Source of the DNA: Spiroplasma mirum ATCC 29335
GTDB taxonomy: Bacteria > Bacillota_I > Bacilli_A > Mycoplasmatales > Mycoplasmataceae
Direction of reading: 5' to 3'
Length of the DNA: 64,000 nt
Assembly: GCF_000565195.1 (NCBI RefSeq)
Contig: NZ_CP006720.1
Location: 62,001 to 126,000, forward strand
Within the stretch, counting starts at the first letter, position 1; every line of letters begins with the position of its first letter. The notes below the pieces were generated by a model that saw only the letters and a list, made by a program, of their open reading frames with translations, made no database searches and was not told where the DNA came from. Both the position numbers and the translations under genes were made by a program. Below, in pieces: positions 17,059 to 23,651 of this stretch.

Positions 17059-17382
17059 ATGCTTAATTTAAATGTTACTTTTAATTTATTTGAAGTTTTA
17101 CCTTGATGAGCAGCTTTATTAATTTGTATTGCAATTATTATAATAGTTACTATTTTAGTCTGATATTTTAAAAAGAAAACCAATAATATTAAAAATAAAG
17201 CTGAGGAAGTTGAATTAAAAAGTTTATGAACAAGAATGCGAGAATTACGACAAAAACAAAAAAATAAGAAGAAAGCGACTTCCATCCCAGAAAAAACGAT
17301 TACTAACCAAGAAAAAATTAAAAAATTAGAAGCAGAATTAGAAGAATTAAAAAATAAAAATAATAATGAAAATGATAATTAA
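17059..17382 (+). CDS. Small hypothetical membrane protein with C-terminal coiled coil
   Basis: 107 residues from ATG 17059 (behind AAGGAG) to TAA 17380-17382. It contains four TGA-Trp codons, including a WW pair, which is why it is easily missed. One transmembrane helix spans about residues 15-38, followed by a basic Lys/Gln-rich stretch and a short heptad-like helix rich in Lys, Leu and Glu near the end. No family recognised. Start, ribosome site, length and the terminator placed exactly at its stop codon support a real gene. Confidence 0.75.
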
Positions 17383-17396: not shown

Positions 17397-17552
17397 ATAT
17401 TTTTTATTTTTTTGTGTATAATATTATTTTGTTTTATTTTTTTAAAATTTAAACTTTTATGATATAATTAACATATAACAAATGGTTGAACATGGTTAGT
17501 AATAGTATGGTTATCAAAATTTTAATATTTAGAATTTGTGGGGGGCATATTA

Positions 17553-20552
17553 ATGGAAAAAATCAAAATATCGAATTTAAAGACAAAGGGTATGCTTGAG
17601 CGCTTTTTATATAGTAGTGATATTGTTAATGCTGGTGATGATATTGCGGTAGTTAAAACAAATAATGATGAAATAATTATTAAAACCCCTTATAATGGTA
17701 AAATCATCAAGCCGCTAAAAACTGGTGCAACTGTTAAGAAAGGTTCAACCATTGCTTACTTATTAACCGATGAGAAAGAAATTGCTAAATATAATAATAA
17801 ACATGGTTATCAAGATGAATTTAGTTATTTAGATAAAAATGGCGTACGATTTAATCCTGGTAAAAATGGGCAGTTTGGGACAAAATGGAAAGATGTTGAT
17901 GAAGAAGATTATTCAGGAGCTGCTTTTGTTAGTGATGCTGATACTAAAACCCCACCGCAACTACTTAATATTACCCAAATTCCTAACAGAAATAAACAGT
18001 ATGCAAATCGAATTGCTAATTTAAAAACTACTGTTGAACCACCAGAAATGCCAATCACCAAACAATCAGAGACTATTCTCCTTGAACCAGATGATTTAAC
18101 TGAGTCATCAGCTGTCCCTGTCAAAAATAACCAGCCAATTATTAATACTGATAGCCTTATTAAAGAAAATGCAGATAATTTAATTAAAAAAGAAGAACCA
18201 GTGGTTAATTTAAATTCAGAAAAAATAAGTGAAAAACATTTAACATTTGGTCCCCAAAAGTCACATCGACTATCATTTAAAAATTTACATTACAATGTTG
18301 GACCTCAAGAACGTGCGCATATTCCTTTAATTGATACAATTAAAGATGTTAATGTGGAAAATTATGGTGCAAAAGATCGAGACGATGATGTTAAAAACAA
18401 TCATTCACTAAATAATTCATTTATGCGAATGCATAATGATATTGCTAATGCAGTTAAGGAAAGTGATAATATGTTAAAAGACAAAACTAATGCAAAAATT
18501 TATGCGAAATATCTTGTTGAAGAAACAAAAAAACAAGATCAAGCACCCCAAAATAACTTAACAGCTAATCTTTTTGCTGCTAATGAAGAAGGAAATTCTT
18601 CTTTTCGTGATTTAGTAAAAGCTCGCCGTAATCAATTACACCAACAAAATAATTTTCACGAAATTATTGATGAACCTGAAAATAATAAGAACGTAATGGA
18701 TTTCTTAGATGAATATGGTCGCCCTAAAATTATGCGAAATATTATTCAAGGACGAATGAATAATTTAATGAAAAACAATGGTCAATTAGAGTCAGTTAAT
18801 GAGGTTAATCCAGCAAGAAGTACAAGCAGTGATAGTAGCGTGTCGAAACAACCTAAAATTTCGGTTGAAGAAGAACCAGTGGACTATATTACAGCGGATG
18901 GCTATGAAATTAAAGTTGGTGAGGATCAAAATACGCCGCCTAAAGATTTAGGTTATTATTCACCATTAAAAACCTATCGTGATCGTTTATATGAAAAATT
19001 AAATAATAACGATCAACGTGAAAAAATTCTTAAAACGCGAAACCAGCGAGAATTAATTAAAAAAAGAATGGAACAATTAGCACGTGGTGATATTGAAGTT
19101 ACCGATAACGTTTTAGGGGCAATTAATAATTACAAGCGCCCTTCTTATGAAGAAATTGAAGCCCAATATGATCTTTTAAATGATAATTATAATAAACAAA
19201 AATTATCATCACCAACGCATGCCACAAATAATAGTGAGGAAATCATTAACCCCTACCGGGAAATCATTCCCGATAGTCTTAAGAGTTCTGCCCAACCAAC
19301 GCCATCCTTAAACCCCCAACCAGTTGTTAATAACCAACCATTTGTGACTAACCCTGGATCTCAATCTCAACCAGTAATTGTTAACCAACCACCAGTTGTT
19401 AATAATAATAACCAGGAAGTATTGGTTGAACTAGCAATTTTAAAAGAAAAATTAGCGCAACAAGAACAACAAAATAAACACCAGGAGTTATTACAAGAAA
19501 TTAAAACATTAAAAGAAAATAATCTTCGTAATAATGTTAATAATAATGATCATAATAATTTTGATAAAATGATGCAGTATATGTTAATGCAACAGATGAT
19601 TAAAAGTATGAATCAAACACCCAATCCTTTTTTAGCACAATTATTACAAGAATCAATGCCTAATCAGCAACCAACTAATTTTAACCAACTACCTCCAGAA
19701 CCACAGAGCCAACCAGGTACCCACAATAACGAAGGGATTATGGTTAAAAAATTTGATGAACAATCTAATAGTAACGCGGGAAATTTTATTCAACCATTAA
19801 ATAACAAACTTAATATTTTACATACAAATACCAATCCCGTGGAACCACAAGGATTAGAAACGAGAGAAGAAATTAAACGAACTAAATATCCAGTAATTCG
19901 GTCAGTTATTTTATCACAAAGTCAAGTGCCACCGCTAACAATTAGTACGGAAATTGATATGTCAGCAGTCATTGAACAACAACGAAAATTAAAGAATGCT
20001 AACGCCGAAACGGGTGTAAAATTTTCAACAATGAGTTTTATCTTAAAAGCTGTTTCGTTAGCATTAAGTAAATATCCAAAACTAAATTCATACTACGACC
20101 AATCAGCTAACCAAATTGTAATTAAAAATTCTCACCATATTGGATTAGCAACGGAAACAAGTGAAGGGTTAGTTATTCCAGTGATTAAGTTTGCAGAACG
20201 CTTAAGCTTAAAACAAATTGCCATTAATATTCAAGAAACTCTTGATCGTTTACGTCAAGGTGAGTTATATGATTATGAATTGCAAGGAAGTACAATTACA
20301 ATTGCTAACTATGGAACAGTTGGCGCAACGCAAGCCACCCCAACAATTTTCTATCCTAACTCTGCTGTAATTGGGGTTGGAAGAATTGTTCGCAAACCAA
20401 TTGTAATTAAAGGCGACAAGTTGGTAATTCGTTCAATGATGAGTATTTCACTAACCATTGATCAAAGAATTATTGATGCAGCGGAAGCGGGAATTTTTAT
20501 GACTAGATTAAAAGAAATTCTTGAACAACCAGAATTAATTACTTTATCATAA
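17553..20552 (+). CDS. Giant dihydrolipoamide acyltransferase (E2)-like protein, probable pseudoenzyme
   Basis: 999 residues from ATG 17553 (preferred over the in-frame GTG 17538, which overlaps the GGGGGGC ribosome site). Residues about 20-75 form a lipoyl-like domain, but where E2 has the ETDKA lipoyl lysine this protein reads KTNND. Residues 100-750 are low-complexity, rich in Asn, Gln and Pro, with a coiled coil around LKEKLAQQEQ (near 19440). The last 230 residues match the E2 catalytic fold (GSTITIANYG, PNSAVIGVG), yet the catalytic DHRxxDG is DQRIIDA. Both active groups are therefore absent. No PDH genes are adjacent. A TATAAT lies at 17463-17468. A structural or scaffold role, like mammalian E3-binding protein, is inference. 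Confidence 0.8.
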   Translation: MEKIKISNLKTKGMLERFLYSSDIVNAGDDIAVVKTNNDEIIIKTPYNGKIIKPLKTGATVKKGSTIAYLLTDEKEIAKYNNKHGYQDEFSYLDKNGVRFNPGKNGQFGTKWKDVDEEDYSGAAFVSDADTKTPPQLLNITQIPNRNKQYANRIANLKTTVEPPEMPITKQSETILLEPDDLTESSAVPVKNNQPIINTDSLIKENADNLIKKEEPVVNLNSEKISEKHLTFGPQKSHRLSFKNLHYNVGPQERAHIPLIDTIKDVNVENYGAKDRDDDVKNNHSLNNSFMRMHNDIANAVKESDNMLKDKTNAKIYAKYLVEETKKQDQAPQNNLTANLFAANEEGNSSFRDLVKARRNQLHQQNNFHEIIDEPENNKNVMDFLDEYGRPKIMRNIIQGRMNNLMKNNGQLESVNEVNPARSTSSDSSVSKQPKISVEEEPVDYITADGYEIKVGEDQNTPPKDLGYYSPLKTYRDRLYEKLNNNDQREKILKTRNQRELIKKRMEQLARGDIEVTDNVLGAINNYKRPSYEEIEAQYDLLNDNYNKQKLSSPTHATNNSEEIINPYREIIPDSLKSSAQPTPSLNPQPVVNNQPFVTNPGSQSQPVIVNQPPVVNNNNQEVLVELAILKEKLAQQEQQNKHQELLQEIKTLKENNLRNNVNNNDHNNFDKMMQYMLMQQMIKSMNQTPNPFLAQLLQESMPNQQPTNFNQLPPEPQSQPGTHNNEGIMVKKFDEQSNSNAGNFIQPLNNKLNILHTNTNPVEPQGLETREEIKRTKYPVIRSVILSQSQVPPLTISTEIDMSAVIEQQRKLKNANAETGVKFSTMSFILKAVSLALSKYPKLNSYYDQSANQIVIKNSHHIGLATETSEGLVIPVIKFAERLSLKQIAINIQETLDRLRQGELYDYELQGSTITIANYGTVGATQATPTIFYPNSAVIGVGRIVRKPIVIKGDKLVIRSMMSISLTIDQRIIDAAEAGIFMTRLKEILEQPELITLS

Positions 20553-22489: not shown

Positions 22490-23651
22490 AAAATTAGTTT
22501 CAAATCATGAGTTTTTATGTAAACATCATACCAGTGGTCGTTATGAAGGAATGAAACACTCTTATGATTTAATGTTAACTTGTGCGGATAGTGATTTTAA
22601 AATTCTGCTGGTAATTCAATAAGATTTAATCAAAGTTATCAAAGAAGGAGATGTTAGTTATTCGTTCTTAGATAATCAATTATTAGAAGCAATTAATACT
22701 TGGTATACTAAATAATATAATTTATCTTTTGCTCGCGAAGAGTTAATTATTGTGAGTGGGGGTTATTCATTTAATGCAAATTGCCTTGAAAGTTTTAACA
22801 AAATCGGGCGATGGAGTTATTGCTCAACCACCAGTTTATGATCCTTTTTATGAAATTATTAAAAATAAAGACCGTAAAATAATTATGAACCATTTATTAT
22901 ATGATGAAGAGTAACAATACTACACAATGAACTTTCTGGAATTAGAAGAATTAATGCAACAACATAAAGCAATGATTTTATGCAGTCCTCATAATCCGGT
23001 GGGAAGAATTTGAAAAGAAGCAGAGTTAGCACAGTTATTATTCTTAGCTGCAAAATATAATGTTTTCATTATTAGTGATGAAATTTGACAAGATATTGTT
23101 TCTAGTAATGTTCAACATCATCCACTTTTTAGTTTTAATTCACCAGCAATTAATCAAGTATTAGTATTATCTTCCCAAACAAAAACTTATAACCTGGCAG
23201 GAGCCCAAATTGGTTATGGGTTATCTTATAACCGTGATTTTATTGTAAAAATGCACCATGAATTAACAAAATCAATTCATTATGCTTCAACTAATTATTT
23301 ATCAGCTAAAATGATTATTAGTGGTTATTTGAACCATGATAATTATGATTGGCTAGCAGCATATAAAACAACGTTAGAAGAAAACTACCATTATTTGGTA
23401 AATGAACTTTTGAAAGGTCAACTAATATCAAATTCACCAGAATTGAAGGAACTTATTTAGGATAGTTAAATATGAGTAAGGTTGTTAAAACATGCCCCCA
23501 GTTAGAGCAAAAATTAGATAGTGTGCATATCCAAGCCATTAATGGTAGTATTTTTTCACCAACTTCCGAACTATTTATCCGGGTTGATTTTGCGCTAGAT
23601 AAAAAAACAATTGCCGAAGTAGCACACCGATTAATTGACTTATTTAAATAA
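22490..23651 (+). pseudogene. PatB/MalY-type C-S lyase (aminotransferase fold), broken
   Basis: Reassembled across several frames it follows PLP-dependent cystathionine beta-lyase/MalY proteins: DVSYSFLDNQLLEAINTW, EELIIVSG, VIAQPPVYDPFYEII, SPHNPVGRIW, IISDEIWQDI and the PLP-lysine region TKTYNLAG. Lesions include stops near 22622 and 22714, a frameshift near 22760, a stop near 22914 and a frameshift near 23450. The start cannot be placed. It probably once supplied sulfur amino acid or beta-cystathionase activity. Confidence 0.7.

Follow-up and report, generated by a model that had tools for sequence, protein, structure and literature searches.

A giant E2-derived protein of Spiroplasma that has lost the lipoyl lysine and the catalytic histidine and follows MreB in its distribution

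Why would a genome keep, in full length, a very long protein that is built like the E2 subunit of the PDH complex and lacks the residues on which E2 depends? The question is raised by the window analysed here, a stretch of 64,000 nucleotides of Spiroplasma mirum ATCC 29335 (contig NZ_CP006720.1, positions 62,001 to 126,000, forward strand), in which positions 17553-20552 of the plus strand encode an E2-like protein, denoted the giant below. The gene and its two folded ends are laid out as follows (window coordinates):

17540-17545, plus strand: probable ribosome-binding site, GGGGGG; a G-rich run precedes the gene in every orthologue shown
17553-20552, plus strand: giant coding sequence, 999 aa plus stop; open frame, with orthologue starts in agreement
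17553-17789, plus strand: N-terminal domain of lipoyl-like type (residues 1-79); PF00364 matched weakly, fold modelled with confidence
17664-17666, plus strand: Asn38 in the place of the lipoylated lysine, within KTNND; aligned with PdhC ETDKVNAEIPSPVDG through the conserved Gly49
19848-20549, plus strand: E2 core domain, residues 766-999; PF00198 match, predicted fold and E2p similarity

The frame starts at ATG 17553, the same start point as in the orthologues, and contains no in-frame TAA, TAG or TGA, so it is stop-free under both the standard and the mycoplasma codes. In base shuffles of the gene (n=500), the longest open run averaged 89 codons and reached at most 188, which puts exact figures on the observation of an earlier note, made from the sequence alone, that the frame is open across 3 kb.

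The lipoyl-like domain and the E2 core are separated by a linker of about 685 residues. The core matches PF00198 over residues 769-997 (E=4.5e-66, 223 bits against a curated cut-off of 23) and E2p of G. stearothermophilus with E=3e-44. Modelled alone and as a single chain (pLDDT 80.5, pTM 0.83), it aligns to most solved E2 cores with Z of 24-28 and an rmsd of about 2 over about 205 residues, and also to the core of human E3BP (6h60; Z 25.7). The match of the N-terminus to PF00364 is below the profile cut-off (E=0.0079), and the predicted fold of residues 1-79 (pLDDT 82-86) resembles lipoyl/biotinyl domains with Z of about 10. Structure prediction thus bears out the earlier claim that both folded ends of E2 are kept. 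No lipoyl lysine in register was present in any of the giant rows read, no peripheral subunit-binding domain (PF02817, PSBD, the E3-binding domain) was matched in the giant at E up to 1, and no stretch of the protein is hydrophobic enough for a transmembrane segment.

Alignment of the core with PdhC, the E2 subunit proper, shows where the active site has changed:

20304-20306, plus strand: Ala918 at the place of Thr/Ser in PdhC; A in 38/44 giants, T or S in 22/22 PdhC
20463-20465, plus strand: Gln971 in place of the catalytic His of DHRxxDG; Q in 43/44, R in 1/44 and H in 0/44 giants

The catalytic His is retained in all 22 PdhC and in none of the 44 giants, and DQRIIDA (residues 970-976) stands where PdhC has DHRxxDG; together with KTNND around Asn38, both substitutions named in the earlier note are confirmed. 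Position 918 corresponds, in our alignment, to Ser558 of A. vinelandii E2p. Consistent class changes between the giants and PdhC are H971Q, G976A, N933F, E936N and F915I. Judged at the level of sequence, this is an inactive E2-type core. In the genomes from which PDH itself is absent, with the carrier lysine and the E3-binding domain missing as well, what is established about the PDH complex makes its reaction impossible for the giant. Loss of the His alone would be no proof of inactivity, given that His375 variants of E. coli E2o retain 0.5-60% activity and a change of Thr323 is mild (PMC5986005). Acyl transfer by way of another carrier may be conceivable; the acetyltransferase label that the giant bears in genome annotations is likely misleading.

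Between the folded ends, three segments of the linker (residues 81-765) stand out:

18585-18782, plus strand: conserved linker block 1, residues ~345-410 (FRDLVKARR..FLDEYGRPKIMRNIIQGRM); dN/dS 0.03-0.06
18963-19157, plus strand: conserved linker block 2, residues 471-535; dN/dS 0-0.08
19410-19613, plus strand: predicted helix/coiled coil followed by a Met/Gln-rich helix (KMMQYMLMQQM), residues ~620-687; dN/dS 0.07-0.11

The description of the middle as rich in Asn, Gln and Pro with a coiled coil holds in part: these three residues make up 28% of the linker, and a helix predicted at 620-659, with low confidence, is consistent with a coiled coil. The linker is not merely low-complexity sequence, however, because residues ~345-410 and 471-535 form conserved blocks. 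Residues of block 1 are invariant across genera, and the block is present in the reduced forms of genus g10 as well; the segment at ~620-687 is invariant in part, and pLDDT of its helix prediction is low. Full-length predictions for five sequences had a mean pLDDT of 36 and were poor beyond the N-terminal domain, for which reason we make no claim on the fold of the blocks.

The giant is present in all Spiroplasma lineages sampled, 44 genomes altogether. Full-length orthologues were found in 14/14 genomes of the genus, the other 13 being 50-90% identical to the S. mirum protein. The other Spiroplasma-type genera of the family encode the giant too (20/20 in g3, 3/3 in g4, and one each in g8, g9 and g12). 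Two small genomes of g10 encode a shortened giant that lacks the lipoyl-like domain and has linker block 1; the active-site motif varies there (DRR in one of the two). The gene also occurs outside this family, in the Ixodetis-like genomes G022 and G035, and in G158 a frameshift splits the lipoyl-like domain off the rest of the giant. The family profile, searched more widely against named genomes, recovered just four giants and one ordinary E2; no relatives were detected in viral contigs, and a literature search, which ran outside subscription journals, yielded no paper on a giant E2-like protein.

In the tree of E2 cores, all 44 giants, the Ixodetis-like ones included, fall into a single clade (support 98/99) that excludes the 22 PdhC; long-branch warnings attach to the rows of g10 and of the third paralogue. 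This separation, obtained by the very comparison with true PdhC that the earlier note had proposed, places the duplication before the split of the Spiroplasma clades; no orthologue with an intact His was found among the 44 relatives. Across four pairs with dS >0.2, which are not fully independent as two share one genome (G009), core dN/dS (NG86) is 0.017-0.023 for the giant and 0.022-0.062 for PdhC, the opposite of neutral drift, and 0.1-0.6 for the remainder of the linker. The giant core is under strong purifying selection, evolving as slowly as PdhC, and both linker blocks are nearly as constrained. Pairs with dS <0.07 (G004/G006, G002/G005, G006/G007) gave dN/dS of 0.4-0.9 overall and were set aside, because they hold too few changes to be relied upon; they may also reflect a constraint that is weaker in the strains concerned.

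A third gene with a PF00198 domain, besides pdhC and the giant, encodes a 621-aa protein elsewhere in the S. mirum genome:

locus L003, 1498-3363, minus strand: third E2-like protein, 621 aa (G000:C1:912799, ~912.8-914.7 kb)

Like the giant, it lacks an in-register lipoyl lysine and the catalytic His (YDESVIN) and has a long linker, here acidic. It differs from the giant in sequence (26-28% core identity), in its separate long branch and in its gene neighbourhood. All 14 genomes of the genus encode it, even where PDH is missing, and in G011 it is shortened; by its sequence, it is a second family of dead E2.

As to INDEPENDENCE from PDH, five genomes either lack PdhC (G004, G006, G007, G011) or have a broken pdhC (G012), and each of them has an open giant. 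Conversely, the non-helical genera g2, g5, g6 and g7 keep PDH and have no giant, and g11 has neither. With the His gone from all 44 giants, the core under the constraint described above and the gene outliving PDH, the earlier proposal of selection for a role beyond PDH catalysis is borne out, and there is a strong case that E2 has given rise to a new family of pseudoenzymes that spans Spiroplasma.

Three accounts can be measured against this record. The presence of decayed genes nearby in the genome, which the earlier note had stressed, might suggest a relic that is open by chance, for which we see next to no likelihood: core dN/dS of about 0.02 and full length in 13/13 other genomes of the genus refute it. 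The same note had considered an E3-binding-type subunit. Such an E3BP-like or regulatory subunit, co-assembling with PdhC, would suit the E2 fold of the core, the proximity of pta-ackA to the giant gene in many Apis-type genomes, and the precedent of mammalian E3BP, an E2 variant devoid of catalytic activity (PMC7494870). However, the giant has neither PSBD nor lipoyl lysine, it is kept where PDH is missing or broken, and the relatives that retain PDH in the non-helical genera do without it; we therefore reject E3BP identity and consider any PDH subunit role highly improbable. The adjacency of pta-ackA, which extends to many g3 and g4 genomes, could also suggest that the giant organises the acetate node (Pta/AckA), but the distribution of AckA leaves this account scarcely credible, and it was rejected: AckA is missing from four genomes with an intact giant (G007, G011, G012, G204) and is encoded in 16/18 non-helical genomes that have none, and in g1 the giant gene is located elsewhere.

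The neighbours of the giant differ from clade to clade. The relevant genes are:

window 17059-17382, plus strand: gene immediately preceding the giant; its 107-aa product has a single membrane span and a charged helix
L125, 3200-4468, plus strand: 423-aa membrane protein, example g3 locus
L101, 8078-9349, minus strand: 423-aa membrane protein, example g3 locus
window 22927-23460, plus strand: 177-aa frame resembling a piece of an aminotransferase

Relatives of the 107-aa protein lie 3 kb from the giant in some genomes of the genus and are not kept in others; as this protein is not consistently adjacent and the neighbours vary between clades, the idea of an operon was dropped. In the two g10 genomes and most of those of g3, the gene just before the giant encodes the 423-aa multispanning membrane protein; Pfam gives no match for this protein, whose membrane half is a member of a larger, multi-copy family of Spiroplasma membrane proteins. 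In some Apis-type genomes, pta-ackA and the membrane protein adjoining the giant are perhaps a trace of an ancestral neighbourhood, which is not general. The 177-aa frame is probably a decayed gene, since the matching frame in G003, a close relative, is about 400 aa long. The giant gene is not located near mreB or fibril.

The distribution of the giant coincides with that of MreB. Among 65 genomes of two families, PF06723 is matched at MreB strength (E <1e-100) in 44, and it is these same genomes that carry the giant. In the remaining 21, where an intact giant is lacking, all matches are weaker (E 1e-15 to 1e-61). The Ixodetis-like family shows what appears to be a stepwise loss of both: four MreB genes are open in G035, and its giant is intact; in G022 every MreB gene is broken or stop-bearing and the giant is open; G047 retains a single MreB fragment and a freshly broken giant, the core of which is 94% identical to that of G035; G029 and G041 have neither. 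The MreB genes of these genomes (L159 and L162 in G022, L160 in G047) stand at successive stages of decay and form a natural series for the study of cytoskeleton loss. Outside the two families, G023 and likewise G072 (75% complete) have an MreB match and no giant. Members of f5, another family of the order (G017, G032, G054 and others), have four to six PF06723 matches of about 1e-60, weaker than those of Spiroplasma MreB and possibly due to DnaK and other actin-like proteins. Fibril was considered as a better correlate and rejected, because in Ixodetis-like genomes the giant occurs and fibril does not. Helical morphology has been lost in the Mycoides-Entomoplasmataceae group (PMC8025503), in agreement with the absence of the giant there. 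The link between the giant and MreB is correlative and reflects perhaps two or three independent losses; because these are so few, it is a lead rather than proof. The open giant of G022, the MreB match of G023 and the distance of the giant gene from mreB and fibril count against it.

Strong selection wherever MreB is kept, even in genomes without the PDH complex, suggests a structural part of the cell. We tentatively favour, at somewhat short of even odds, the reading that the giant is an old E2 duplicate which gave up catalysis and now serves the MreB-based cell architecture as an oligomeric scaffold; judging from sequence comparisons, a cytoskeletal role is plausible. Long ago, the E2 subunit of PDH would have been duplicated, and one copy would have lost its catalytic parts and acquired a long flexible arm. 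E2 cores range from trimers to 60-mers. If the giant core still assembles as trimers at least, several long flexible arms would emanate from one hub, with the linker blocks and the lipoyl-like domain as putative docking sites for partners. Because the presence and decay of the giant follow MreB, these partners would most likely belong to the MreB-based system of cell shape and swimming or to its polar anchoring. A more specific version, in which the E2 core became a multivalent hub of the helical swimming machinery and arms of about 700 residues bind MreB filaments or the dumbbell at the cell pole as docking partners, is, taken by itself, rather unlikely. The published lists for S. eriocheiris name 16 proteins of up to 85.8 kDa in the Triton-insoluble fraction and six in the purified ribbon; no E2 and no E2-domain protein of about 113 kDa is among them (PMC5289999, PMC9582952), which makes a filament subunit less likely than a factor that is soluble, scarce or polar. 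The scaffold or cytoskeletal role that the earlier note had suggested finds correlative support in the distribution of MreB.

Two other roles would account for much of the same evidence. The giant might be a scaffold for a different process, such as division or the organisation of the chromosome or of membrane proteins, lost together with MreB when the cell plan is lost. Conservation and PDH independence fit this equally, the adjoining 423-aa membrane protein, the absence of the giant from the insoluble fractions and the giant that stayed open in G022 after the MreB genes broke all speak for it, and the stepwise co-decay in the Ixodetis-like family, a single family, points at MreB instead; such a role is possible, if on the unlikely side. 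A repurposed acyltransferase, with Gln in place of His and working with another acyl carrier or on a protein, would explain why the old active-site residues Asp970, Arg972 and, mostly, Asp975 are conserved among the giants and why Asn936, Gln971 and their neighbours are, like Asp970 and Arg972, nearly invariant, and the residual activity of the E2o His375 variants is in its favour. We regard it as improbable, because the lipoyl lysine and the E3-binding domain are gone, position 918 is mostly Ala, PDH is often absent, and the reduced g10 forms dispense with the lipoyl-like domain and vary the active-site motif while keeping linker block 1.

Beside MreB and fibril, the giant is a concrete candidate gene for the building and anchoring of the ribbon and for the polar dumbbell, because the loss of this universally conserved protein follows the loss of MreB. 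If the more specific version of the scaffold reading is correct, the hub would be a conserved and previously unrecognised component of the helical swimming machinery of Spiroplasma.

Comparison with known systems sets the giant apart from each of them. PdhC of the same genome, encoded between pdhB and pdhD, shares with it the fold of the E2 core, 38% core identity and an N-terminal lipoyl-type domain; unlike PdhC, which has DHRLIDG, the lipoyl lysine and a PSBD (PF02817, 6.2e-14), the giant lacks the carrier lysine, the PSBD and the catalytic His, has the linker of about 685 residues and falls in a separate clade. E3BP (mammalian PDHX, fungal PX) is likewise an inactive derivative of E2, retained for assembly; however, E3BP is a PDH subunit with a functional lipoyl domain and a PSBD, both of which the giant lacks, and the giant is also kept where PDH is gone. 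The Spiroplasma ribbon (MreB1-5 and fibril) resembles the giant in its distribution over lineages; the giant is unrelated in sequence to MreB1-5 and fibril and is unreported in the isolated ribbon. Fibril is itself a structural protein of enzyme origin, with a nucleosidase fold, and engineers already use the E2 multienzyme core as a nanoparticle. If the giant is indeed a scaffold, a metabolic multienzyme core would have evolved into a structural hub beside the nucleosidase-derived fibril.
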